Positions 2 through 15,152 of a stretch of DNA of 53,273 nucleotides are shown piece after piece (position 1 is the first letter of the stretch; the number at the start of each line of letters is the position of its first letter). The translations under genes were made by a program, and so were the position numbers. Below the pieces are notes generated by a model. That model did no database searches, was not told where the DNA came from, and saw nothing but the letters and a program-made list of their open reading frames with translations. This DNA is from Oscillospiraceae bacterium (lineage in GTDB: Bacteria > Bacillota > Clostridia > Oscillospirales > Oscillospiraceae): assembly GCA_017937195.1 (NCBI GenBank), contig JAGBEA010000011.1, forward strand, positions 1 through 53,273. Direction: 5' to 3'.

Positions 2-3000
2 GGTACTTGGTCTCCTGCGATCGCGGATGTGACCGGCGATGCCACTTACACGGCGCAGTTTGACAAGACCGTCAACACCTACACCGTTACTTGGGTCAAC
101 TATGACGGCTCCGTGCTGGAAACCGACAACAACGTCCCCTACGGTGACGAGCCCAGCTATGACGGCGCAGCGCCCGTCAAGCCCGCCGATGCACAGTACA
201 CCTATGCGTGGAGTGGTTGGGACCCCGTGGTCTCCATTGTGACCGGCGATGTGACCTACACCGCACAGTTTGACAGCGAGGTCAACACCTACACCGTCAC
301 TTGGGTGGACGGCGACGGCAAGACCTTGAAGGCCGACACGCTTGACTACGGCGACACGCCTGCTTACTCCGGCGCTACGCCTACCAAGAAGGCAGATGCA
401 CAGTACACCTACACCTTCAACGGTACTTGGTCGCCTGCCATCAGCGCTGTCACCGGCGATGCCACCTACACCGCACAGTTCGACAGTACTATCAACAAGT
501 ACACCGTCACTTGGGTCAACTATGACGGCTCTATTCTGGAGACCGACACCGATGTCCCCTATGGAACGGATCCCAGCTATGACGGCGCGGCTCCTACGCA
601 GCCTGCCGATGGGATCTACACCTACGAGTGGATGGGCTGGGAGCCCACCGTTTCCAAGGTCACTGGCAATGTCATCTATGCGGCAAGCTACAACCGCCTG
701 CCCATCCCCTACACCGTCACTTGGGTGGACGGCGATGGCAAGACCCTGAAGACCGACACCCATTACTCCAGCCAGATTCCCTCTTATACCGGCGCTACGC
801 CCACCAAGAAGGCGGATGCTCAGTACACCTACACCTTCAACGGCACTTGGTCGCCCGCCATCGAGCCGGTCACCGGCGATGCCACCTACACGGCACAGTT
901 TGACAAGACCGTCAACACCTACACTGTCACTTGGGTGGATGGCGACGGCAAGACGCTGGGTGAGACCGTCTATGAGTACGGTGATACCCCCACCTACACC
1001 GGCGCTACGCCCACCAAGAAGGCGGATGCTCAGTACACCTATACTTGGGATGGCACTTGGTCTCCTGCGATCGCGGATGTGACCGGCGACGCCACCTACA
1101 CGGCGCAGTTTGACAGTGAGGTCAATTCCTACACCGTCACTTGGGTGGACGGTGATGGCAAGACCCTGAAGTCCGACACGCTTGAGTACGGTGATACCCC
1201 CGCTTACACCGGCGCTACGCCTACCAAGAAGGCAGATGCCCAGTACACCTACACCTTCAACGGTACTTGGTCGCCTGCCATCGTGGATGTGACCGGCGAT
1301 GCTACCTACACCGCACAGTTCGGCACCACCGTCAACACCTACACCGTCACTTGGGTCAACTATGACGGCTCTATTCTGGAGACTGACACCGATGTTCCCT
1401 ACGGCACTGACCCCAGCTATGACGGCGCAGCGCCTACGCAGCCTGCCGATGGCGTCTACACTTACGAGTGGATGGGCTGGGAGCCCACCGTTTCCAAGGT
1501 CACCGGCAATGTCATCTATGCGGCAAGCTACAACCGCCTGCCCATCCCCTACACCGTCACTTGGGTGGACGGCGATGGCAAGACCCTGAAGACCGACACC
1601 CATTACTCCAGCCAGATCCCCTCTTATACCGGCGCTACGCCCACCAAGAAGGCGGATGCTCAGTACACCTACACCTTCAACGGTACTTGGTCGCCTGCCA
1701 TCGAGCCGGTCACCGGCGATGCCACCTACACGGCGCAGTTTGACAAGACCGTCAACACCTACACCGTCACTTGGGTGGATGGTGATGCCAAGACACTGGG
1801 TGAGACCGTCTATGAGTACGGTGATACCCCCGCTTACACCGGCGCTACGCCCACCAAGAAGGCAGATGCTCAGTACACTTATACCTTCAACGGTACTTGG
1901 TCGCCTGCCATCAGCGCTGTCACCGGCGATGCCACCTACACCGCACAGTTCGACAGTACTATCAACAAGTACACGGTCACTTGGGTCAACTATGACGGCT
2001 CTATTCTGGAGACCGACAACAACGTCCCCTACGGTGACGAGCCCAGCTATGACGGCGCAACGCCCGTCAAACCTGCCGACGCACAGTATACCTATACCTG
2101 GAGCGGCTGGGATCCCGCGGTCTCCGATGTCACCGGCGATGTGACCTACACGGCACAGTTCGGTGCTACCGTCAACAAGTACACCGTCACTTGGGTGGAT
2201 GGTGATGGCAAGACGCTGGGTGAGACCGTCTATGACTACGGTGATACCCCCGCTTACACCGGCGCTACGCCTACCAAGAAGGCGGATGCTCAGTACACTT
2301 ATACCTTCAACGGTACTTGGTCGCCTGCCATCAGCGCTGTCACCGGCGATGCCACCTACACCGCGCAGTTTGACAAGACAGTCAACACCTACACCGTCAC
2401 TTGGGTCAACTATGACGGCTCTATTCTGGAGACCGACAACAACGTTCCCTACGGTGACGAGCCCAGCTATGACGGCGCAACGCCCGTCAAGCCTGCCACT
2501 GCCCAGTACACCTATACTTGGAGCGGCTGGGATCCCGCGGTCTCCGATGTCACCGGCGATGTGACCTACACGGCACAGTTCGGTGCTACCGTCAACAAGT
2601 ACACCGTCACTTGGGTGGATGGCGATGGCAAGACACTGAAGACTGACACGCTTGAGTACGGCGATACGCCTGCTTACACCGGTGCAACGCCCACCAAGTC
2701 CCCCGATACCCAGTACACTTACACTTGGGACGGCACTTGGTCGCCTGAGATTGAAACGGTCACCGAGGATGCCACCTACACCGCACAGTTCAAGATCGCA
2801 ACTGCCGATCTGACCATCGAGGCGGAGGGTGCGGACGCGTCTCACAGCTACATCTTCACCGTCACACAGATCGTCGCCGATCCTGCGCAGGAAGCGATCA
2901 CGATGAAGGTAGTGGTGGTTGGCAACAGCCATGTGACCATCAAGGGTCTGCCCGTTGCCACCTACGAGGTGAAGGAAGTCACCCAGTGGAGCTGGCGTCA

Positions 3001-3133
3001 GGCGGATGTCAGCGCACAGACGGTGCTTCTCGACACCAGCAAGACCGTTTCCTTCGACTTCGGCGAAGTGGAAAAGACCCAGTGGCTCAGCGGCTACAGC
3101 TACAACAGAGCTAAGAAAGGAGGCAGCATCTGA
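2..3133 (+). CDS. Repeat-rich secreted surface protein, 5' end missing
   Basis: The reading frame is already open at the left edge, so the signal peptide and start lie outside the window. About 1,043 residues are visible. Most are 70-residue units beginning YTVTW and ending near TYTAQF, resembling the InlB B-repeat / Listeria-Bacteroides repeat class of beta-rich surface modules. After the last unit comes a single domain from about base 2815, starting near TADLTIEAEG, which resembles the DUF7601/pilin-like beta domains of clostridial surface proteins. The C-terminus (KTQWLSGYSYNRAKK) has no sorting motif or membrane anchor. Its stop codon overlaps the next start (TGATG), so the two genes are translationally coupled. 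The likely role is adhesion or matrix structure outside the cell, which is an inference. The repeats are certain. The exact family name is less so. Confidence 0.85.
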   Translation, partial: GTWSPAIADVTGDATYTAQFDKTVNTYTVTWVNYDGSVLETDNNVPYGDEPSYDGAAPVKPADAQYTYAWSGWDPVVSIVTGDVTYTAQFDSEVNTYTVTWVDGDGKTLKADTLDYGDTPAYSGATPTKKADAQYTYTFNGTWSPAISAVTGDATYTAQFDSTINKYTVTWVNYDGSILETDTDVPYGTDPSYDGAAPTQPADGIYTYEWMGWEPTVSKVTGNVIYAASYNRLPIPYTVTWVDGDGKTLKTDTHYSSQIPSYTGATPTKKADAQYTYTFNGTWSPAIEPVTGDATYTAQFDKTVNTYTVTWVDGDGKTLGETVYEYGDTPTYTGATPTKKADAQYTYTWDGTWSPAIADVTGDATYTAQFDSEVNSYTVTWVDGDGKTLKSDTLEYGDTPAYTGATPTKKADAQYTYTFNGTWSPAIVDVTGDATYTAQFGTTVNTYTVTWVNYDGSILETDTDVPYGTDPSYDGAAPTQPADGVYTYEWMGWEPTVSKVTGNVIYAASYNRLPIPYTVTWVDGDGKTLKTDTHYSSQIPSYTGATPTKKADAQYTYTFNGTWSPAIEPVTGDATYTAQFDKTVNTYTVTWVDGDAKTLGETVYEYGDTPAYTGATPTKKADAQYTYTFNGTWSPAISAVTGDATYTAQFDSTINKYTVTWVNYDGSILETDNNVPYGDEPSYDGATPVKPADAQYTYTWSGWDPAVSDVTGDVTYTAQFGATVNKYTVTWVDGDGKTLGETVYDYGDTPAYTGATPTKKADAQYTYTFNGTWSPAISAVTGDATYTAQFDKTVNTYTVTWVNYDGSILETDNNVPYGDEPSYDGATPVKPATAQYTYTWSGWDPAVSDVTGDVTYTAQFGATVNKYTVTWVDGDGKTLKTDTLEYGDTPAYTGATPTKSPDTQYTYTWDGTWSPEIETVTEDATYTAQFKIATADLTIEAEGADASHSYIFTVTQIVADPAQEAITMKVVVVGNSHVTIKGLPVATYEVKEVTQWSWRQADVSAQTVLLDTSKTVSFDFGEVEKTQWLSGYSYNRAKKGGSI
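80..2809 (+). repeat. 13 tandem 210-bp coding repeats
   Basis: Thirteen units of exactly 210 bp (70 codons) start at 80, 290, 500 and so on to 2600, with no length drift. Two unit types are mixed: NYDG units (YTVTWVNYDGS..., GWxP) and DGDG units (YTVTWVDGDGK..., NGTWSPAI). By type the order is N D N D D D N D D N D N D. Units 3-5 and 7-9 are near-identical blocks 840 bp apart, and units 10-11 and 12-13 repeat at 420 bp, so recent block duplication is visible. A partial unit precedes base 80. Confidence 0.95.
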
Positions 3134-4381: not shown

Positions 4382-4756
4382 TTACAGTTCGGTTTTCCAC
4401 AGACCGTGGAGATTGCAGTAGGCGTAGACAGCCACGGGCTTCTCATCACCCAGAACGAAGGTGACCTCGGGAGCCTCACCGGGCTGCAGCACCTTGCGCT
4501 GACCGCCCTTCTCGGTCTCCAGATAGACCCACTGGATGAAATGCTCGGGGATCATGGGATGATCGACGCTGCCCACGTTCACGCGGACCACACCGTCACC
4601 AACGGTCACAGCGGGGATATGCTTCTCGCCGCTGGCCTCCACCGTGTTGGGTACCAGCTCTTCCATCTTCTGACCGCAGCACATCATGGGGACACCGGAT
4701 GCGTGGATCATACCGACCAGATTGCCGCAACGGCTGCAAACATAAAACTTACTCAT
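4382..4756 (-). CDS. dfx: Desulfoferrodoxin (superoxide reductase)
   Basis: This 124-residue cytoplasmic enzyme reduces superoxide to hydrogen peroxide without making oxygen, which is the usual strategy of anaerobes. The N-terminal desulforedoxin domain binds one iron with C7, C10, C26 and C27 (CSRC...CC). The catalytic domain shows the expected ligands for the His4-Cys iron: H46 (in EKH, with the active-site lysine), H66, H72, and C114/H117 (YCNLHG). The length is that of two-iron superoxide reductases. It is transcribed alone from a promoter carrying a Crp-type palindrome (4847-4859). Rubredoxin at 7726-7887 is the likely electron donor. No residues appear to be missing. Confidence 0.96.
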   Translation of the reverse strand: MSKFYVCSRCGNLVGMIHASGVPMMCCGQKMEELVPNTVEASGEKHIPAVTVGDGVVRVNVGSVDHPMIPEHFIQWVYLETEKGGQRKVLQPGEAPEVTFVLGDEKPVAVYAYCNLHGLWKTEL

Positions 4757-4819: not shown

Positions 4820-4859
4820 ATTATAGCATACATTTATGACTTTTCTGTGACTTTCTCAC
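4820..4859 (-). promoter_or_regulatory. dfx promoter with GTGA-N5-TCAC operator (site A)
   Basis: On the minus strand there is an extended -10, TGC-TATAAT (4828-4820), with no recognisable -35. The palindrome TGTGA-CTTTC-TCACA (core 4847-4859) is centred 28 bases upstream of the first -10 base. This puts it about 40 bases before the start of transcription, the class II activator position used by Crp/Fnr proteins. Confidence 0.75.
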
Positions 4860-4877
4860 AAAACTTGGAAAAATTTT

Positions 4878-5555
4878 TCAAAGCAGTTGAAAGTGCCGCC
4901 GGCTGCAGGCAATGACCCCCTCCTGACACAGCTTACTGATCTGCACTGACAGCCCGCTGCGCTCCACCTCCAGATAGTCTGCCAGCGCCTGCCGGTCGTA
5001 GGGGATGCTAAACTCGCGGCTGCCGCAGCTGAGGGCTTGCTGCTGCAGGTAAGCCAGCAGCTTTTCCCGGGTGGTGCGCTTGGACAGGATCTGCAGCTTC
5101 CGATGCAGCATCACATTCTTATCGGCGCTGATACGCAGCAGATTGAAGATCACGCGACTGTGGAACTGGCAGCCATTACAGCAGCACATAGACAGCTTGA
5201 CACTGTCCAGCAGCAGTACACAGCTGTCCTGCTCCGCTGTCACCGTCACCGGCAGCACCTGATGACGGGCAAAGGCAAACGCCTCGGCAAATAAGTCGCC
5301 GCCCAGCAGATGGGCTACAATACTGCGCTTGCCGTCATAGTCCTGCCGGCTCAGCTGCAGCATTCCATCCAGCACAATGCCGATGGCAGTGGCGGGGTCT
5401 CCCTCCCGAAAAACCGTCTGCCCCTTCCCGACCGCCATCATCCGCGCGCCCATACAATCCAGCAGCGACTCCATCTCCTGCATCTGCACCCCCTCAAAGA
5501 GAGGACACTCCTGCAAAATTTCCAAATATTTTTTGACGTTTTGTTGAATATTCAA
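4878..5555 (-). CDS. Crp/Fnr-family regulator 1 with Cys cluster
   Basis: This 225-residue regulator has an N-terminal cyclic-nucleotide-type sensor fold (about 15-125), a long dimerisation helix (about 132-160) and a C-terminal winged helix (about 163-225). A cysteine/histidine group, C124 C125 C126 C129 H132, lies between sensor and helix and could bind an Fe-S cluster, metal or nitrosyl. Families with this Cys-rich hinge are common in Clostridia. The recognition helix reads VERSGLSVQISKL, which lacks the Arg-Glu-x3-Arg triad of CRP, so a different operator is expected. The start is a TTG, supported by GGAAGGAG seven bases upstream. Its first four codons are the palindrome TTGAATATTCAA. The gene is divergent from a ferredoxin gene that it probably controls, in the manner of HcpR (inference). 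Confidence 0.85.
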   Translation of the reverse strand: MNIQQNVKKYLEILQECPLFEGVQMQEMESLLDCMGARMMAVGKGQTVFREGDPATAIGIVLDGMLQLSRQDYDGKRSIVAHLLGGDLFAEAFAFARHQVLPVTVTAEQDSCVLLLDSVKLSMCCCNGCQFHSRVIFNLLRISADKNVMLHRKLQILSKRTTREKLLAYLQQQALSCGSREFSIPYDRQALADYLEVERSGLSVQISKLCQEGVIACSRRHFQLL

Positions 5556-5584
5556 TATACAACTCCTTCCCGATGCCGTATACT
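5544..5584 (+). promoter_or_regulatory. Ferredoxin promoter with TTGAATATTCAA operator
   Basis: A perfect 12-base palindrome (5544-5555) is centred 29.5 bases upstream of the -10 box TATACT (5579-5584), with no -35 box. This is a class II activator layout. The palindrome also forms the first four codons of regulator 1 on the other strand, so binding could block or tune the regulator's own expression. Confidence 0.65.
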
Positions 5585-5632
5585 GGGCTCATCCAATAGA
5601 CAATACCACTCTTCTCAAGGAGGATTTTATGT

Positions 5633-6325
5633 ATGATCAGACGAATCATTAAGATCGACGAGGACAAGTGCACCGGCTGCGGTCTGTGTGCCAAGGCCTG
5701 CCACGAGGGCGCCATTGGTATGGTGGACGGCAAGGCAAAGCTGCTGCGTGAGGATTACTGCGACGGCTTGGGCGACTGTCTGCCCGCCTGCCCGGAGAAC
5801 GCCATCTCCTTCGAGGAGCGGGAAGCCCCTGCCTACGATGAGGAGGCCGTACGCCGCGCGCAGGCCGCCAAGACAGCGCCTCTGCCCTGCGGCTGCCCCG
5901 GCTCCCAGTCCAAGGTATTGCAGCCGCAAACGCCCGCTGCAGCCGCTCCTGCATCCAGTGCAAGCCAGCTGCGGCAGTGGCCGGTACAGATCAAGCTGGC
6001 GCCGGTCAACGCCCCGTACTTTGACGGTGCCAAGCTGCTGATCGCCGCCGACTGCACCGCCTATGCCTACGGCAATTTCCACCACGATTTCATCCGCGGT
6101 CACATTACGCTGATCGGCTGCCCCAAGCTGGACGGCGTGGATTACACCGAAAAGCTGACCGCTATCATCGCCAACAACAATATTCAGAGCGTTACCATCG
6201 TGCGGATGGAAGTGCCCTGCTGCGGCGGTATTGAGTCCGCTGCCAAGCGCGCCATTCAGCAAAGCGGCAAGTTCCTGCCGTGGCAGGTGGTCACCGTCTC
6301 CACCGACGGGCGGATCCTCGACTGA
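5633..6325 (+). CDS. Two-cluster 4Fe-4S ferredoxin with CCGG C-terminal domain
   Basis: This 230-residue cytoplasmic iron-sulfur protein has two N-terminal clusters, CTGCGLCAKAC and CDGLGDCLPACP (about residues 11-58). A Pro/Ala/Gln linker follows. The C-terminal domain (about 120-230) carries conserved-looking cysteines in ADCTAYAYG, GCPKLDG and EVPCCGGIE. Proteins of this shape accompany HcpR-type Crp/Fnr regulators and hybrid-cluster protein in anaerobes, which suggests a role in nitric oxide or redox stress. No hybrid-cluster protein is visible in the window. The start is ATG 5633 with AAGGAGG upstream. An overlapping ATG at 5629 stops after a few codons. The gene diverges from regulator 1 and ends at a terminator shared with trxB. 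Confidence 0.85.
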   Translation: MIRRIIKIDEDKCTGCGLCAKACHEGAIGMVDGKAKLLREDYCDGLGDCLPACPENAISFEEREAPAYDEEAVRRAQAAKTAPLPCGCPGSQSKVLQPQTPAAAAPASSASQLRQWPVQIKLAPVNAPYFDGAKLLIAADCTAYAYGNFHHDFIRGHITLIGCPKLDGVDYTEKLTAIIANNNIQSVTIVRMEVPCCGGIESAAKRAIQQSGKFLPWQVVTVSTDGRILD

Positions 6326-6330
6326 CAACG

Positions 6331-6366
6331 AAGAATGTCTGCCCCAAACGGCAGACATTCTTTTTT
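6331..6366. terminator. Bidirectional terminator, ferredoxin / trxB
   Basis: The hairpin AAGAATGTCTGCC ... GGCAGACATTCTT is followed by a T run and lies between convergent genes. Confidence 0.9.
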
Positions 6367-7285
6367 ATTCCTGCGCCAGATATTCCTCGGCATAGTGTAC
6401 CGCCACCGCGCCATCCGCCGTGGCAGTGACCACCTGACGCACCGTCTTGGTGCGCACATCGCCCACGGCGAACACGCCGGGCAGGTTGGTGCGGGTGGAC
6501 TCATCTGCCACCACATAGCCGCCGTCATCCAGCGTAAGCTGACCGCGCACCAGCGCCGTGGCAGGGGCTCTGCCCACGCTGACAAAGAGTCCGTCGCACT
6601 CTACCACCGACTCCTCACCGGTATGGACATCCCGCAGCTTCACACCCTGCAGCCGCCCGTCACGCAGCAGCTCCGTCACGGTGCTGTTCCAGCGGAATTC
6701 CACATTCTCCGCGCTCAGCAGCGGCTGATGGTACAGCTTGGTGGCGCGCAATGTATCGCGGCGGTGGACAACGATCACTTTCTTGGCCACGCGGCTTAAG
6801 AGCAGCGCATCTGCCGCCGCCGTATTGCCGCCGCCGACCACCACCACCGTCTTGCCGCGATAGAACATTCCATCGCAGGCAGCGCAATAGTGGACGCCGC
6901 GGCTGGTCAGCTCCTGCTCACCGTCCACGCCCAGCACTCTGGGCACGGCACCGGTGGACAGCACCACCGTCTTGGCGTAAAAATCGCCCTCGCTGGTGAC
7001 GATTTTCTTCACCTTTCCGGTCAATTCCAGTTCCAGCACCTCTGCCAGTTCCGTTTTTGCACCGAATCGCTCCGCACCGGCACGCATCTTCTCGCCCAGC
7101 GTGAAGCCGTCTACCCCGTCTTCAAAACCGGGATAGTTATCGATCTGGGTGGTCAGTGCCATCTGCCCACCGGCAGACAGCTTCTCCAGCACCACTGTGT
7201 CAAGACCTGCTCTTGCGGCATACAGCGCCGCCGTGTAGCCGCCGGGACCGCCGCCGACTACGATCATATCATAGATGCGCTCCAT
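6365..7285 (-). CDS. trxB: Thioredoxin reductase
   Basis: This 306-residue flavoenzyme passes electrons from NAD(P)H through FAD to a Cys pair and then to thioredoxin. Visible motifs are the FAD-binding GGGPGG (11-16), the redox pair CAAC (C134, C137), the nucleotide-binding GGGNTA (151-156), HRR at 174-176 (the pattern associated with NADPH), and a C-terminal AVGDVR FAD motif. The length matches the low-molecular-weight bacterial type. It sits 12 bases after a thioredoxin gene on the same strand, forming a trxA-trxB operon under the palindrome-bearing promoter at 7644-7684. It may reduce both thioredoxins in this cluster. Confidence 0.96.
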   Translation of the reverse strand: MERIYDMIVVGGGPGGYTAALYAARAGLDTVVLEKLSAGGQMALTTQIDNYPGFEDGVDGFTLGEKMRAGAERFGAKTELAEVLELELTGKVKKIVTSEGDFYAKTVVLSTGAVPRVLGVDGEQELTSRGVHYCAACDGMFYRGKTVVVVGGGNTAAADALLLSRVAKKVIVVHRRDTLRATKLYHQPLLSAENVEFRWNSTVTELLRDGRLQGVKLRDVHTGEESVVECDGLFVSVGRAPATALVRGQLTLDDGGYVVADESTRTNLPGVFAVGDVRTKTVRQVVTATADGAVAVHYAEEYLAQE

Positions 7286-7297
7286 TGCATTGCCTCC

Positions 7298-7615
7298 TTA
7301 CTCGCCCAACGTTTCTTTGATGAACTCCTCGATCTTTGCCTTGGACTCCGGCGCTACCACGCTGCCCAGCGCCTTGCCATTGCGGTACAGCACCAGCGTG
7401 GGGATCACCTCGATCTGCTCCTGCGCTGCCAGCTGCGGCTCATCGTCAATGTTCACCTGAGCCACAGAGAGAACATCTGCGTACTGCTCCGATACCTTTT
7501 CCAGTGCCGGTACGATCCGACGGCAGTATACGCACCACGGTGCCCAAAACTCCACCAGAACGGGTCGGTCACTTTGCCGCGCACTGCGGAAGATTTCTTG
7601 ATTCATAGCCTTCAT
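7298..7615 (-). CDS. Thioredoxin with variant WCVYC active site
   Basis: This 105-residue single-domain thioredoxin has the active site in FWAPWCVYCRR and the cis-proline loop in EVIPTLVLY. The canonical WCGPC is replaced by WCVYC. Changing the two residues between the cysteines usually shifts redox potential and partner choice, so this protein may prefer substrates other than those of the canonical thioredoxin at 8727-9032. It is co-transcribed with trxB 12 bases downstream, so the reductase is probably its physiological partner. The promoter carries operator site B. The fold and length are normal. The specific targets cannot be read from sequence. Confidence 0.93.
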   Translation of the reverse strand: MKAMNQEIFRSARQSDRPVLVEFWAPWCVYCRRIVPALEKVSEQYADVLSVAQVNIDDEPQLAAQEQIEVIPTLVLYRNGKALGSVVAPESKAKIEEFIKETLGE

Positions 7616-7643
7616 ATCGTTATCACCTTTCGTTTTTTTCTGT

Positions 7644-7684
7644 ATTATACCCTACTTTTGTGCCTATTTCCGTGATGTTGTCAC
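7644..7684 (-). promoter_or_regulatory. trxA-trxB promoter with GTGA-N5-TCAC operator (site B)
   Basis: The minus-strand -10 TATAAT (7649-7644) has the palindrome GTGATGTTGTCAC (7672-7684) centred exactly 29 bases upstream of it, and no clear -35. This is the same geometry as sites A, C and D. Confidence 0.75.
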
Positions 7685-7725
7685 ATACAGAAAACCGGCA
7701 CGGCAGATGCCGCACCGGTTTATCA

Positions 7726-7887
7726 TCAGTCGTCACGCTGGGCAAAATCGTTCTTGCCAACACCGCACAGCGGGCAGACAAAATCCTTGGGCAGGTCCTC
7801 CCACTTGGTACCGGGGGCAATGCCCTCCTCGGGGCAGCCCTTCTTCTCATCGTATTCCCAACCGCAAAGCAGGCAAACATATCTCAT
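7726..7887 (-). CDS. Rubredoxin
   Basis: This 53-residue one-iron electron carrier has two cysteine knuckles, CLLCG near the N-terminus and CPLCG near residue 38, which together bind Fe(SCys)4. The spacing and length are standard for rubredoxin. The start is the ATG at 7887, giving MRYVCLLCGW, with GGAGG nine bases upstream. An in-frame ATG five codons earlier is not needed. In anaerobes rubredoxin donates electrons to superoxide reductase and flavo-diiron proteins, both encoded nearby. It is transcribed alone, divergent from Crp/Fnr regulator 2, with operator site C in between. Confidence 0.96.
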   Translation of the reverse strand: MRYVCLLCGWEYDEKKGCPEEGIAPGTKWEDLPKDFVCPLCGVGKNDFAQRDD

Positions 7888-7926
7888 ATTCAATACCTCC
7901 ATATTTGTTATTTTTAGGATGGTCTG

Positions 7927-7967
7927 ATTATAGCAGATTATTCTCCTCTTTTCTGTGACTTTGTCAC
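7927..7967 (-). promoter_or_regulatory. Rubredoxin promoter with GTGA-N5-TCAC operator (site C)
   Basis: The minus-strand extended -10, TGC-TATAAT (7935-7927), has the perfect palindrome GTGACTTTGTCAC (7955-7967) centred 29 bases upstream and no -35. The same palindrome lies about 54 bases before the predicted start of the divergent regulator 2 transcript, so it may also provide autoregulation. Confidence 0.78.
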
Positions 7968-7979
7968 CCCACTTTCCCT

Positions 7980-8008
7980 TTGACATCTGCGGCAAAAATG
8001 CGTATAGT
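7980..8008 (+). promoter_or_regulatory. Promoter of Crp/Fnr regulator 2
   Basis: A strong sigma-A-type promoter, TTGACA (7980-7985), 17-base spacer and TATAGT (8003-8008), precedes the regulator's ribosome site. Unlike the target promoters it has a full -35, so the regulator should be expressed without help. Confidence 0.85.
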
Positions 8009-8029
8009 AGACTTATCGGAGGTGAGGAA

Positions 8030-8689
8030 ATGTCCTTTTCCAACTATTTTCCTATCTGGAATAAATTGACCCCCAATCAGCAGGAACGACTGCTTTCCTC
8101 GGCCACCTTGCACAAGGTGTCCAGTGGCACTGTGCTGCACGATGGCGGCCCCAACTGTCTGGGGTTGATCCTCGTCCGCAGCGGTCAGCTGCGCGCGTAT
8201 ATGCTCTCTGAGGAGGGTCGTGAGGTGACCATCTCCCGCTTCTTTGAGATGGACCTATGCCTTTTTTCTGCCTCCTGCGTGATGCCCAATATGCAGTTCG
8301 ATATTTTCATCGCCGCAGAAAAGGACAGCGAGGTGTGGATCGTTCCCGCCTGCCTCTATCAAAACCTGATGGACGAGTCTCTGGCACTGTCCAACTACTC
8401 CCACAATCTGATCACCAGCCATTTTTCCGAGCTGATGTGGCTGATGGAACAGATTATGTGGAAAAGCTTTGATAAGCGGCTGGCCGCCTTCTTGCTGGAG
8501 GAGAGCCTGCTGGATGAGACGGATTCGCTGAAGATCACCCACGAGAAGATCGCCAACCATATGGGCACCGCCCGCGAGGTGGTCACCCGTATGCTGCGCT
8601 ATTTCCAGAGTGAAAATCTGGTAAAGCTGACCCGCGGCACCATCGAGCTGACGGATCGCGAGGGCTTGGAAAATTTGAAAAACGAATGA
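8030..8689 (+). CDS. Crp/Fnr-family regulator 2 (likely redox regulon activator)
   Basis: This 219-residue regulator has a beta-roll sensor domain (about 10-120), a dimerisation helix (about 125-150) and a winged helix-turn-helix (about 160-219). Cysteines at DLCLFSASC (near residues 77-83) could sense oxidants. The recognition helix, GTAREVVTRML, keeps the Arg-Glu-x3-Arg pattern with which E. coli CRP reads GTGA. This matches the GTGA half-sites found in four neighbouring promoters. The start is ATG 8030 with GGAGGTGAGG upstream. In-frame codons further upstream overlap the promoter and are not used. It diverges from rubredoxin. The effector is unknown, and no cyclic-nucleotide ligand can be inferred. 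Confidence 0.88.
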   Translation: MSFSNYFPIWNKLTPNQQERLLSSATLHKVSSGTVLHDGGPNCLGLILVRSGQLRAYMLSEEGREVTISRFFEMDLCLFSASCVMPNMQFDIFIAAEKDSEVWIVPACLYQNLMDESLALSNYSHNLITSHFSELMWLMEQIMWKSFDKRLAAFLLEESLLDETDSLKITHEKIANHMGTAREVVTRMLRYFQSENLVKLTRGTIELTDREGLENLKNE

Positions 8690-8690
8690 A

Positions 8691-8719
8691 AAATGCCCGC
8701 CAAGGGCGGGCATTTTTTT
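8691..8719. terminator. Bidirectional terminator, regulator 2 / thioredoxin 2
   Basis: The hairpin AAATGCCCGCC-AA-GGGCGGGCATTT is followed by a T run and lies between convergent genes. Confidence 0.92.
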
Positions 8720-8726
8720 GATACAG

Positions 8727-9032
8727 TTACAGTGCGGCAAGGATCTGCGCTTTGGGCTGTGCACCCAGCAGTTCCCGCTCTACCTCGCCATCTTTGATGA
8801 CGAACATAGTGGGAATACTGATGATGCCGAACTCCTGCGCCAGCTCGGTCTCCTCGTCTACATTGACCTTGCAGACCTTGATGTCCTCCCGCTCAGCGGC
8901 GATAGCATCCAGGGTGGGGGTCAGCATACGGCACGGACCGCACCACGGTGCCCAGAAATCCAGCAGAACGGGTCTGTCGCTGTTGATGACCTCCTGCTCA
9001 AAGGTGTTCTTGGTGATATGCAATACTGCCAT
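8727..9032 (-). CDS. trxA: Thioredoxin (canonical WCGPC)
   Basis: This 101-residue thioredoxin has the classic active site WAPWCGPC and the cis-proline loop ISIPTMFV. It reduces protein disulfides and thiol peroxidases in the cytoplasm. It is monocistronic, read from a promoter with operator site D, and divergent from the flavo-diiron protein gene 116 bases away. The window therefore holds two thioredoxins with different active sites, both apparently controlled by the same palindrome type. Only one reductase is visible and probably serves both. Confidence 0.95.
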   Translation of the reverse strand: MAVLHITKNTFEQEVINSDRPVLLDFWAPWCGPCRMLTPTLDAIAAEREDIKVCKVNVDEETELAQEFGIISIPTMFVIKDGEVERELLGAQPKAQILAAL

Positions 9033-9079
9033 AGTTACGACTCCTTTCGTTTATACCGTTTGTTTTTCTTTCTGGGCAT

Positions 9080-9120
9080 ATGATACCCTATTTCCCACCG
9101 TATATCTGTGACAAAGTCAC
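9080..9120 (-). promoter_or_regulatory. trxA promoter with GTGA-N5-TCAC operator (site D), shared with fprA
   Basis: The minus-strand -10 TATCAT (9085-9080) has the perfect palindrome GTGACAAAGTCAC (9108-9120) centred 29 bases upstream. On the plus strand the same site ends only 28 bases before the fprA start codon. It would therefore overlap or abut the fprA core promoter, where its effect could be activation or repression. Confidence 0.72.
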
Positions 9121-9148
9121 TATTTTCATTTTATAAGGAGAAAACCCC

Positions 9149-10300
9149 ATGTTCATTACCAATGATATCCGTTATATTGGTGTAAATGATCATCAAATTG
9201 ATCTTTTTGAGGGTATTTACACTGTCCCCAACGGAATGTCCTATAATTCCTATGCCATTGTGGACGAGAAGATCGCCATTATGGACAGCGTGGATCGCAG
9301 CTTTGGCGAGGAGTGGCTGGCAAAGATCGATGCCGCGCTGGATGGCAGAACCCCCGACTATCTGGTGGTTCATCATATGGAGCCCGATCACTCCTCCAAC
9401 ATCTGCGCCTTTATGGAGCGCTATCCGCAGGCGGTGGTGGTGGCTTCCGCCCGCGCCTTTGTGATGATGCAGAATTTCTTTGGGCAGGACTTTGCTGACC
9501 GTCGCATCGTGGTGGGCGAGGGCGACTCCCTTGCACTGGGCAAGCACACCCTGACCTTCGTCACCGCCGCTATGGTGCACTGGCCCGAGGTGATGATGTC
9601 CTACGACAACTGTGACAAGGTGCTCTTCTCCGCCGATGCTTTCGGCAAGTTCGGTGCGCTGGATGTGGAGGACGAATGGGCGTGCGAGGCGCGCCGCTAC
9701 TACTTCGGCATCGTGGGTAAATACGGCGGCCCCACGCAGGCCGTGCTGAAAAAGATTACAACCTTGGACATTTCCGCCATCTGCCCCCTCCACGGTCCCG
9801 TGCTGAACGAGAACCTTGAGTATTATGTCAACCTCTACGATACTTGGTCGTCCTACGGCGTGGAGAGTGAGGGCATTGTGATCGCCTACACCTCCGTCTA
9901 CGGCAACACCAAGCTGGCAGTGGAGCTGCTGGCGGAAAAGCTGCGCGATAAAGGCTGCAAGGTAGTGGTCAATGATCTGGCACGCTGCGATATGGCGGAG
10001 GCGGTAGAAGACGCCTTCCGCTATGGCAAAATGGTGCTGGCCACCACCACCTACAACGGCACGGTTTTCCCCTTTATGGAGGATTTTATCCACCATCTGA
10101 CCGCCCGCGGCTACTGCAACCGCACCGTGGCGCTGATGGAAAACGGCTCCTGGGCACCCGCAGCTGCCAGAACTATGGCAAAAATGCTGGAAAACAGCAA
10201 GGATCTCACTTTTACGGACACCGTTGTCACCATCCGCTCGGCGCTGAATGACGAAAGCCGCGCACAGCTGGATGCAATGACCAACGAGCTGTTGGGTTGA
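9149..10300 (+). CDS. fprA: FprA-type flavo-diiron protein
   Basis: This 383-residue cytoplasmic enzyme reduces O2 to water or NO to N2O. The N-terminal metallo-beta-lactamase domain (about 1-245) carries the diiron ligands H76, E78, D80 and H81 (HHMEPDHS). Further likely ligands lie in AAMVHWPEV, FSADAFGKFG and CPLHGPV. The C-terminal flavodoxin domain (about 248-383) begins IAYTSVYGNTKLA, an FMN phosphate loop. The length is that of the class A enzymes that take electrons from rubredoxin. The ribosome site AAGGAG precedes the ATG. With superoxide reductase, rubredoxin and thioredoxins nearby, it completes an anaerobe's oxygen-defence set. It ends in a strong terminator. Confidence 0.95.
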   Translation: MFITNDIRYIGVNDHQIDLFEGIYTVPNGMSYNSYAIVDEKIAIMDSVDRSFGEEWLAKIDAALDGRTPDYLVVHHMEPDHSSNICAFMERYPQAVVVASARAFVMMQNFFGQDFADRRIVVGEGDSLALGKHTLTFVTAAMVHWPEVMMSYDNCDKVLFSADAFGKFGALDVEDEWACEARRYYFGIVGKYGGPTQAVLKKITTLDISAICPLHGPVLNENLEYYVNLYDTWSSYGVESEGIVIAYTSVYGNTKLAVELLAEKLRDKGCKVVVNDLARCDMAEAVEDAFRYGKMVLATTTYNGTVFPFMEDFIHHLTARGYCNRTVALMENGSWAPAAARTMAKMLENSKDLTFTDTVVTIRSALNDESRAQLDAMTNELLG

Positions 10301-14036: not shown

Positions 14037-15152
14037 TCAGTTGGCGCAGTCGTTGCAAACGCCGGTCAGCATATTGGCGGAACCGTCAGCAGTGAAGATG
14101 TTGATCTTCTCGGTATTCAGAGTCAGCTTGATCTGGGTGCCGGGCTCAATGATGCTGTCGATGGAGGACTCCTGAATGATCTCAGCTTCCTCGCCGGACT
14201 CCAGATGTACGAAATAGTGGGTCATCAGGCCCAGGAACACGCAGTCATCGACGATGGCGGGGATACCCTCGGCATTGGCGTCGCGGCTCAGCAGGAACTC
14301 CTCAGGACGGACGGACAGAACGATGTCCTGATCGGCCTTATACTGCTCCTGAACGTTGACCATCTCAGCCTTGTAACCGGTGGGGGCGACCACGAAGGTC
14401 TTGCCGTCCACCACTTCCAGCTTGCCGTTCAGAATGTTGGAGCGGCCGATGAAGGTGGAAACGAACAGGTTAGCGGGACGCTGATAGATGTTCTTGGGAG
14501 TACCGACGTGCTGGATAACACCGGCGCTCATAACAGCGATACGGTCGGAAACGGCCATAGCCTCTTCCTGATCGTGGGTAACGTACACGGTGGTGATGCC
14601 CACGTTGTGCTGGATGTTCTTGATGACGGTACGCATCTCGACACGCAGCTTAGCATCCAGGTTGGACAGAGGCTCGTCGAACAGCAGGACGTCGGGCTCA
14701 ATGCACAGAGAACGTGCCAGAGCGACACGCTGCTGCTGGCCACCGGACAGACGCTCGGGCAGACGGTCAGCGTACTCATCCACGTGCATCAGAGCCATGA
14801 ACTTGTCAGCCTGCTCCTTGACCTTCTCCTTGGGCAGCTTCTTGTTCTGCAGACCGAACTCCACGTTCTTGCGGACGGTCATGTGGGGGAAGATAGCATA
14901 GTTCTGGAACACCATACCGATGTTACGCTTAGCGGGGTCCAGATCGTTGATGCGCTTCTCGTTGAAGTAGAAGTCGCCGCCCTCGATGCTGTTAAAGCCG
15001 GCGATCATACGCAGCAGAGTGGTCTTACCGCAGCCGGAAGGACCCAGCAGGGTGAAGAACTCACCGGGTTTGATCTCCAGATTCAGATCGGGGATGATGG
15101 TGTTTTCGCCATACTTCTTCAGAGCATGGTTGATGGTAATGGTTACGCTCAC
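14037..15152 (-). CDS. AfuC-like ABC transporter ATPase
   Basis: This 371-residue ATPase energises import. Walker A is GPSGCGKTT (37-45), the signature is LSGGQQQR, and Walker B is LLFDEPLSNLD. The C-terminal third is a TOBE domain, usual for MalK/PotA/FbpC-type ATPases. I chose GTG 15152, because GAGGAG lies eight bases upstream. A TTG six codons earlier would place that ribosome site inside the gene. It is 48 bases downstream of the glycerol-1-phosphate dehydrogenase gene on the same strand, so dehydrogenase, ATPase, permease and binding protein probably form one operon driven from 16605-16577 and controlled by a DeoR regulator. Confidence 0.9.
   Translation of the reverse strand: MSVTITINHALKKYGENTIIPDLNLEIKPGEFFTLLGPSGCGKTTLLRMIAGFNSIEGGDFYFNEKRINDLDPAKRNIGMVFQNYAIFPHMTVRKNVEFGLQNKKLPKEKVKEQADKFMALMHVDEYADRLPERLSGGQQQRVALARSLCIEPDVLLFDEPLSNLDAKLRVEMRTVIKNIQHNVGITTVYVTHDQEEAMAVSDRIAVMSAGVIQHVGTPKNIYQRPANLFVSTFIGRSNILNGKLEVVDGKTFVVAPTGYKAEMVNVQEQYKADQDIVLSVRPEEFLLSRDANAEGIPAIVDDCVFLGLMTHYFVHLESGEEAEIIQESSIDSIIEPGTQIKLTLNTEKINIFTADGSANMLTGVCNDCAN

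Follow-up and report, generated by a model that had tools for sequence, protein, structure and literature searches.

Which protein reads the palindromes that stand before a group of redox genes in an Oscillospiraceae bacterium, and what does it do when bound there? The window, as we call the whole stretch analysed here, is a contig of 53,273 nucleotides (JAGBEA010000011.1, assembly GCA_017937195.1). An earlier note, made from its letters alone, had described four copies of GTGA-N5-TCAC preceding the genes for superoxide reductase, thioredoxin 1 with thioredoxin reductase (trxA-trxB), rubredoxin and a second thioredoxin, and had proposed a Crp/Fnr-type gene in their midst, regulator 2, as the reader. 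All four palindromes were found exactly where they had been placed, their centres 28 or 29 bases ahead of -10 boxes on the minus strand, and domain matches agree with the names given to the genes behind them (Table 1). On the comparisons below we put the probability at about 0.8 that regulator 2 is a class II activator of a thiol/disulfide and peroxide repair regulon, acting via GTGAY-N3-RTCAC.

A palindrome at a fixed distance from the -10 box

The window contains six exact copies of GTGA-N5-TCAC against 0.61 expected, a number that none of 100 shuffles reached; the two copies besides the promoter sites (at 15052 and 52438) fall within long open reading frames (ORFs). With one mismatch allowed the excess was weak (28 matches vs 19.9 expected, and five shuffles reached 28), and since it nearly vanishes, it is the exact palindrome that matters. 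The bacterium's own genome has 32 exact palindromes vs 11 of the reversed pattern, and most lie within long, mechanically listed ORFs, so real sites have to be set apart by their surrounding architecture. A strict promoter pattern that captures this architecture (GTGAY-NNN-R-TCAC-RG-N18-20-TANNNT, with the reversed pattern as control) gave four matches in the genome and none in the control, namely sites 2, 3 and 4 and a promoter on contig C3 (G000:C3:38281-38321, the same as L017:3982-4022); site 1 misses it solely through a G at the fifth base. Behind the C3 promoter stand, as one operon, genes for an SDR oxidoreductase, CcdA and a TlpA-like thioredoxin. In the draft assembly C3 is a contig separate from the window; the promoters of this genome's predicted regulon thus number at least five, one being on a contig other than the window. 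A fixed-spacing search of the genome with two mismatches gave five matches vs four in the control and added only C26:1154. That exact match was rejected as a regulon site, because it lacks RGA and lies in a possible ORF.

Conservation in relatives, on which the earlier note had staked its reading, was found: the same spacing, before the same kinds of gene, in genomes that carry regulator 2. Our sample of loci was the best 80 of at least 581 encoding regulator 2 relatives (55-78% identical; 1,008,071 bases). GTGA-N5-TCAC occurs 120 times in these loci and nine other spacings (N2-N4, N6-N11) 3-32 times each, the N6 of CRP accounting for 16, in agreement with the proposed CRP-like core with a five-base centre. 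In 87 of 240 orientations a TANNNT hexamer starts 22 bases after the site ends; any other offset reaches at most 13, and 61 of the 80 loci have at least one site with a -10 box at offset 20-24. The palindromes might in principle have arisen by chance in AT-rich intergenic DNA, given that single GTGA-N5-TCAC matches are common inside genes and that the window shows little excess at one mismatch; the spacer, reversed-pattern and shuffle controls, together with the co-occurrence counts given below, refute this reading, to which we assign a negligible probability.

The consensus of 81 non-redundant sites, selected for GTGA-N5-TCAC and TANNNT at offset 22, is GTGA-Y-N-W-N-R-TCAC-R-G-A-A, followed by 18 little-conserved bases, among which a G at -14 is frequent (72% of the sites), and the -10 box. 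Positions -35 to -31 form a conserved C-R-G-A-A (G at -33 in 96%, A at -32 in 89%, A at -31 in 88%), and with a 17-bp spacer its G-A-A occupies the place of the -35 hexamer, which reads C-R-G-A-A-N and not TTGACA. Beyond the other end of the palindrome, the base that mirrors the -33 G is poorly kept (C in 12%), while the one mirroring the -32 A is T or A in 98%. Since its mirror base is not conserved, the -33 G looks like a contact of the polymerase; part of the flank may belong to the operator. Of 104 target promoters, four match TTGACA at four positions and none at five or six; five (in L065, L082, L091, L099 and L124) lack the G and are probably chance or wrong-strand matches. The claim that these promoters have no -35 thus stands as regards TTGACA, but leaves out the conserved C-R-G-A-A.

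The promoter of regulator 2 itself is of another kind. In 81 upstream regions (the 80 loci and the window) we found 74 candidate promoters, 40 with an exact TTGACA and 15 more with five of its six bases, against 0.5% and 4.9%, respectively, in shuffled upstream regions. At least five of six matches were thus seen in 55 of 74 own promoters vs 0 of 104 target promoters, a comparison in which the own-promoter search chose the best place freely, whereas in the target search the site dictated the place, and its last letters extend into the hexamer at spacers of 17 and 18. Eighteen of the 80 loci have a site no more than 260 bp upstream of regulator 2, its distance from the regulator 2 promoter varying between loci, and site 3 of the window likewise stands 12 bp ahead of the -35 (TTGACA) of regulator 2's divergent promoter. 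Regulator 2 appears to be made constitutively and is perhaps autoregulated. Because a consensus sigma-A promoter drives it, it would probably respond to its signal by a change in activity rather than in amount.

A centre near -41 (TANNNT at offset 22) and a poor -35 are the features of a class II promoter. The constancy of the spacing in relatives and the contrast with regulator 2's TTGACA promoter support class II activation geometry, as had been proposed for the window. Could regulator 2 instead be mainly a repressor, or a dual regulator, released by oxidation? The site does overlap the -35 region, the sites close upstream of regulator 2 in 18 loci could serve repression of its own gene, and site 4, 28 bp before the start codon of a divergent flavodiiron gene, could repress the latter. 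A repressor, however, would tolerate a consensus -35 and variable positions, whereas the centre is fixed at about -41 and the -35 is poor in 104 of 104 target promoters, which is what an activator needs; we therefore favour activation and consider a mainly repressive or dual role improbable. As an activator, regulator 2, a dimer by analogy, would bind the 13-bp core of GTGAY-N3-RTCAC, one base shorter than that of CRP, and recruit sigma-A RNA polymerase to promoters that have a -10 box and a degenerate -35, in which C-R-G-A-A touches the end of the site.

Regulator 2 and the distribution of its putative sites

Regulator 2 has a Crp-type winged helix-turn-helix at its C-terminus (PF13545, HTH_Crp_2, 60.1 bits, cutoff 27). 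An N-terminal cNMP-binding beta-roll scores below the cutoff (PF00027, 24.1 bits, cutoff 27.5), yet the protein matches the Crp/Fnr structure 3dv8 over its full length (1e-82). The Arg-Glu-x3-Arg recognition helix that the earlier note had read in it is present as R182-E183-x3-R187 and is CRP-like. Among 109 loci with a long match, which hold 107 distinct sequences, R182 is kept in all 107, E183 and R187 in 106 each, and the full R-E-x3-R in 105; the exceptions, E183V and R187K, occur once each, in L189 (26% identity) and L181 (44%), respectively. This conservation agrees with a GTGA half-site as the predicted target. The cysteines C43, C77 and C83 are kept in 105, 96 and 106 of the 107, and no other cysteine is widely conserved. 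An internal TGA stop noticed in two relatives was dismissed, as it lay at the end of the match and tblastn aligns residues 7-217 without a stop.

We searched 197 genomes of the order for regulator 2, for the strict pattern and for regulator 1, a second Crp/Fnr regulator encoded in the window, the genome set being taken as identical by its handles. The pattern matched 108 times, vs three matches of the reversed control, and was present in 62 genomes. Of the 76 genomes with regulator 2, 56 carry the pattern, vs 6 of 121 without (Fisher p 4e-25, overstated since the genomes are related); in the window's own family it was seen in six of the seven other genomes that have regulator 2 and in one of the eight that lack it. 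Such an association would also arise if the sites were read by another protein, either regulator 1 or an unlinked one, that is co-inherited with regulator 2. Regulator 1 is in the same window, genes like it lie a few kb from regulator 2 in G040, G082, G144, G206 and G221, and taken alone it is associated with the pattern too (48 of 110 genomes with it vs 14 of 87 without, p 5e-5); moreover, the core is 13 bp and not the 14 bp of the Crp/Fnr operators known to us. Among genomes with regulator 2, however, regulator 1 adds nothing (47 of 61 vs 9 of 15, p 0.20), whereas the effect of regulator 2 is seen both in regulator-1-positive (47 of 61 vs 1 of 49) and in regulator-1-negative genomes (9 of 15 vs 5 of 72), and on these stratified counts regulator 1 was rejected as the reader. 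Further, 41 of the 108 sites are no farther than 1 kb from regulator 2, and the GTGA half-site fits its R-E-x3-R helix. A reader other than regulator 2 is therefore, in our estimate, quite improbable, regulator 1 being the alternative that was compared.

Linkage alone is an insufficient explanation of the association, because of the 102 sites in genomes with regulator 2, 58 share a contig with the gene and are at most 10 kb away from it, and 44 do not meet this description. Contig breaks may hide linkage in some cases, but not where a site is far inside a long contig, an example being G175:C18:689301 in a contig of 754,434 bases. The regulon had been called local; this describes the clustering of sites in the window, but neither the fifth promoter, on C3, nor these 44 sites. 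Two genomes with the pattern and without a regulator 2 match deserve mention: in G105 the site precedes a thioredoxin gene, and regulator 2 was possibly missed in an incomplete assembly, and in G191 there is no gene behind the site.

Several observations weigh against regulator 2 as a thiol-responsive reader of these sites. The strict pattern is absent from 20 of the 76 regulator-2 genomes; a scan around regulator 2 with a looser pattern, run with no control, found a site in six of them (G033, G063, G082, G100, G135 and G181) and none in the stretch around regulator 2 in the other 14. Some of these have a distant paralogue or a short contig. The relatedness of the genomes makes the p values overstate the evidence, so that the Fisher p is no true probability, and the sets of loci and genomes overlap and are not independent (L122 and L049, and likewise L133 and L048, carry identical regulators). 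We know of no Crp/Fnr operator with an odd core and of no Crp/Fnr-DNA complex with a 13-bp core. Finally, seven relatives have Ser in place of C77, and since four of them (L065, L070, L072 and L076) keep sites, C77 is not essential.

Of 40 genomes searched, 14 gave a match to regulator 2, counting the genome of the window itself, and a close relative (E below 1e-50) was present in 6 of 24 genomes of the same genus (G001-G024), several of them incomplete assemblies. By eye, a site with the same architecture stands near regulator 2 in five of these six (L048, L049, L050, L051 and L053; not L052). Even among members of one genus the regulon looks patchy, as loss or transfer would make it. Over 3.4-6.4 kb, DNA that spans regulator 2 and target promoters is 95.7-99.3% identical between L085 (Anaeromassilibacillus, Acutalibacteraceae), L087 (Faecalicatena), L088 (Fusibacillus, Lachnospiraceae) and L116 (Mogibacterium, Anaerovoracaceae), whose hosts come from three orders. 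The block that they share (Table 1) holds regulator 2 together with thioredoxin-rhodanese-CoA-disulfide-reductase and rubrerythrin-type targets. The degree of identity between organisms of three orders suggests a recent transfer of the block as a unit, with contamination of draft assemblies as an alternative. No plasmid match was found for 3,480 bases of L085, and no mobile-element domain among ten ORFs of L085 scanned with Pfam, five of which had no match at all.

Predicted targets and the likely signal

We inspected 103 of the 108 genome-wide matches; the five left out, four from genomes that lack regulator 2 and one at the edge of a contig, slightly favour regulator 2 by their omission. First genes were labelled by BLAST against a reference set drawn from the window, the C3 operon and the 80 loci, a set that comes partly from linked loci and so favours such genes, while the 103 sites themselves were found by the DNA pattern alone. 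The first gene belonged to the reference redox set at 89 of the 103 sites; 12 had another gene and two had none. The commonest was a thioredoxin of the thioredoxin 2 type (35 of 103), followed by a small 4Fe-4S ferredoxin (16), thioredoxin 1 type (8), thioredoxin reductase (6), CoA-disulfide-reductase-rhodanese, rhodanese and CcdA (4 each), rubrerythrin and SDR (3 each), and rhodanese lipoprotein, rubredoxin and superoxide reductase (2 each). The name CoA-disulfide reductase was given on the strength of TIGR03385 (530 bits, below the cutoff of 579), PRK13512 (409, cutoff 394) and a C-terminal rhodanese domain. A Pfam scan of seven of the 12 other first genes found a ferritin, a peroxiredoxin, the beta chain of a ferredoxin-thioredoxin reductase, a PTPS-family protein, a DUF3783 protein, a 2-hydroxyacid dehydrogenase and one protein without a match. 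No Hcp or nitric oxide (NO)-specific gene was recognised among the labelled first genes, among which hcp was not searched by name.

The gene content points to the handling of thiols and disulfides, sulfane sulfur, electron carriers and peroxide, more than of NO. The predicted targets of regulator 2, in the cluster and elsewhere, would include thioredoxins, thioredoxin reductase, rubredoxin, superoxide reductase, rubrerythrin, ferredoxins, rhodanese, CoA-disulfide reductase and CcdA-TlpA. As to how it is switched, the mechanism that we prefer, and which we infer from the conserved residues, is a thiol sensor in which C43 and C83 would sense the thiol redox (or persulfide) state. The relatives without C43 or C83 (L058, L184 and L187) are distant, 30-33% identical.

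Alternatively, regulator 2 might be a haem-based or NO sensor of the CooA, HcpR or PgRsp type and respond to a gas rather than to thiols. Superoxide reductase and rubredoxin fit an oxygen response, and CooA is the second match in the PDB by profile (1.7e-16). The haem ligands of CooA are Cys75 and His77. The profile alignment, however, puts His77 on Ser80 (Ser in 101 of 109) and Cys75 on Leu78, so a CooA-like haem site is not supported; the commonest first genes, moreover, are thioredoxins and small ferredoxins, and none recognised was Hcp-like, in a labelling that did not search hcp by name. PgRsp, a haem-binding redox regulator of Porphyromonas gingivalis, was modelled on 3DV8 in the one paper found to mention this structure together with its species (PMC6955866), and this speaks for haem. 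We think a gas sensor unlikely, and prefer the thiol sensor.

Table 1. Sites, promoters and genes of the window, and the block shared between loci. Sites are given in promoter orientation, and distances run from the centre of the site to the -10 box
Feature	Position	Strand	Remarks
Site 1, GTGAGAAAGTCAC	4847..4859	-	before superoxide reductase; distance 28
-10 box TATAAT, superoxide reductase promoter	4820..4825	-	
Site 2, GTGACAACATCAC-GGAA	7672..7684	-	before trxA1-trxB; distance 29
-10 box TATAAT, trxA1-trxB	7644..7649	-	
Site 3, GTGACAAAGTCAC-AGAA	7955..7967	-	before rubredoxin; distance 29
-10 box TATAAT, rubredoxin	7927..7932	-	
Site 4, GTGACTTTGTCAC-AGAT	9108..9120	-	before thioredoxin 2; distance 29
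-10 box TATCAT, thioredoxin 2	9080..9085	-	
Superoxide reductase (desulfoferrodoxin), putative target	4382..4756	-	Desulfoferrodox 5.3e-21
Thioredoxin reductase (trxB), putative target	6365..7285	-	TIGR01292 361 bits, cutoff 343
Thioredoxin 1 (trxA1), putative target	7298..7615	-	PF00085 2.2e-26
Rubredoxin, putative target	7726..7893	-	PF00301 5.7e-22; start is an internal ATG of the listed ORF 7726-8043
Thioredoxin 2 (trxA2), putative target	8727..9032	-	TIGR01068 117 bits, cutoff 97
Flavodiiron protein (FprA), divergent from thioredoxin 2	9149..10300	+	ODP 3.5e-16
Regulator 2, Crp/Fnr-type predicted activator, 219 aa	8030..8689	+	HTH_Crp_2 60.1 bits; PDB 3dv8 1e-82
Regulator 2 own promoter, TTGACA-17-TATAGT	7980..8008	+	consensus -35, unlike target promoters
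Shared block	L085:5236-11557, L116:1726-8085, L087:5237-8715, L088:800-4230, parts of L102 and L115		94-99% identical

In the window trxB and trxA1 apparently form one operon. Whether the flavodiiron gene belongs to the regulon is uncertain; an FprA-like gene is preceded by a site at two other loci (L065 and L072). Site 4 stands 28 bp ahead of the flavodiiron start codon (window 9086-9149), and if the flavodiiron promoter lies upstream, this site could activate thioredoxin 2 while hindering the flavodiiron gene. Regulator 1 (region 4878-6325) and a ferredoxin-like gene (5633-6325) point away from each other, in a manner reminiscent of hcpR-frdX, and the palindrome TTGAATATTCAA lies at regulator 1's listed start (5544-5555). 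At one end of the window (29-3133) there is a 1034-aa ORF of repeats (YTVTWVDGDGKTL and others), by eye probably a surface protein.

To our knowledge, little is known of the control of the thioredoxin system in strict gut anaerobes. It is conceivable, though we hold this only tentatively, that the sites belong to a widespread, hitherto undescribed thiol/persulfide response of gut Clostridia, with sensing by C43/C83 in the sensor domain, an odd 13-bp operator read in a dimer geometry new to the superfamily, and a compact module that moves between orders together with its target promoters. The promoter code is now precise, there is one candidate regulator, from whose family a structure has been solved (3DV8), and targets are listed in 62 genomes of one order, so that the question can be tested with one purified protein.

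Comparison with known Crp/Fnr systems

The CRP operator has a 14-bp core, and at class II promoters of E. coli CRP its centre is at -41.5. The system described here resembles that of E. coli CRP in its GTGA half-sites, its R-E-x3-R helix, a centre about 41 bases upstream of the start and a weak -35. It differs in the operator, which is not that of CRP (GTGA-N5-TCAC, 13 bp, vs GTGA-N6-TCAC, 14 bp), in the cNMP domain, which scores below the Pfam cutoff, and in the regulon, which concerns thiol and redox repair, not carbon use. FNR carries an N-terminal cluster of cysteines for its 4Fe-4S centre. An FNR-type sensor was rejected, as the first cysteine of regulator 2 is C43 and the N-terminal cysteines of FNR are absent.

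HcpR1 and HcpR2, like regulator 2, are Crp/Fnr regulators of redox genes in anaerobes that were predicted by comparative genomics (PMC1274295; for HcpR of C. difficile, PMC12915319). Their motifs, wTGTGAnnnnnnTCACAw and GTAACnnnnGTTAC, respectively, both have 14-bp cores, the position of regulator 2's Glu is Pro, Ser or Gln in HcpR2, and the main target of HcpR is hcp (PMC1274295). By the definition found there, regulator 2, with its GTGAY-N3-RTCAC motif and E183 in 106 of 107 relatives, is not HcpR2.

Closest to regulator 2 is PDB 3DV8, a Crp/Fnr regulator of Eubacterium rectale (1e-82), which has all three cysteines and the same R-E-x3-R; as far as we found, it is a structure only, with no DNA site, regulon or signal attached to it. 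Through this template regulator 2 is also comparable to PgRsp, another Crp/Fnr redox-sensing regulator; PgRsp differs in binding haem, in belonging to Bacteroidota and in its reported regulon (PMC6955866), and orthology to regulator 2 is not implied. A literature search with the motif in five spellings returned no paper on it, most subscription journals being outside that search. The odd spacing raises the question of how a Crp/Fnr dimer reads half-sites that are one base closer. The system is known in kind, a Crp/Fnr regulator with class II promoters; what appears to be new is the spacing of the operator, the regulon, and a putative function for the 3DV8 family.

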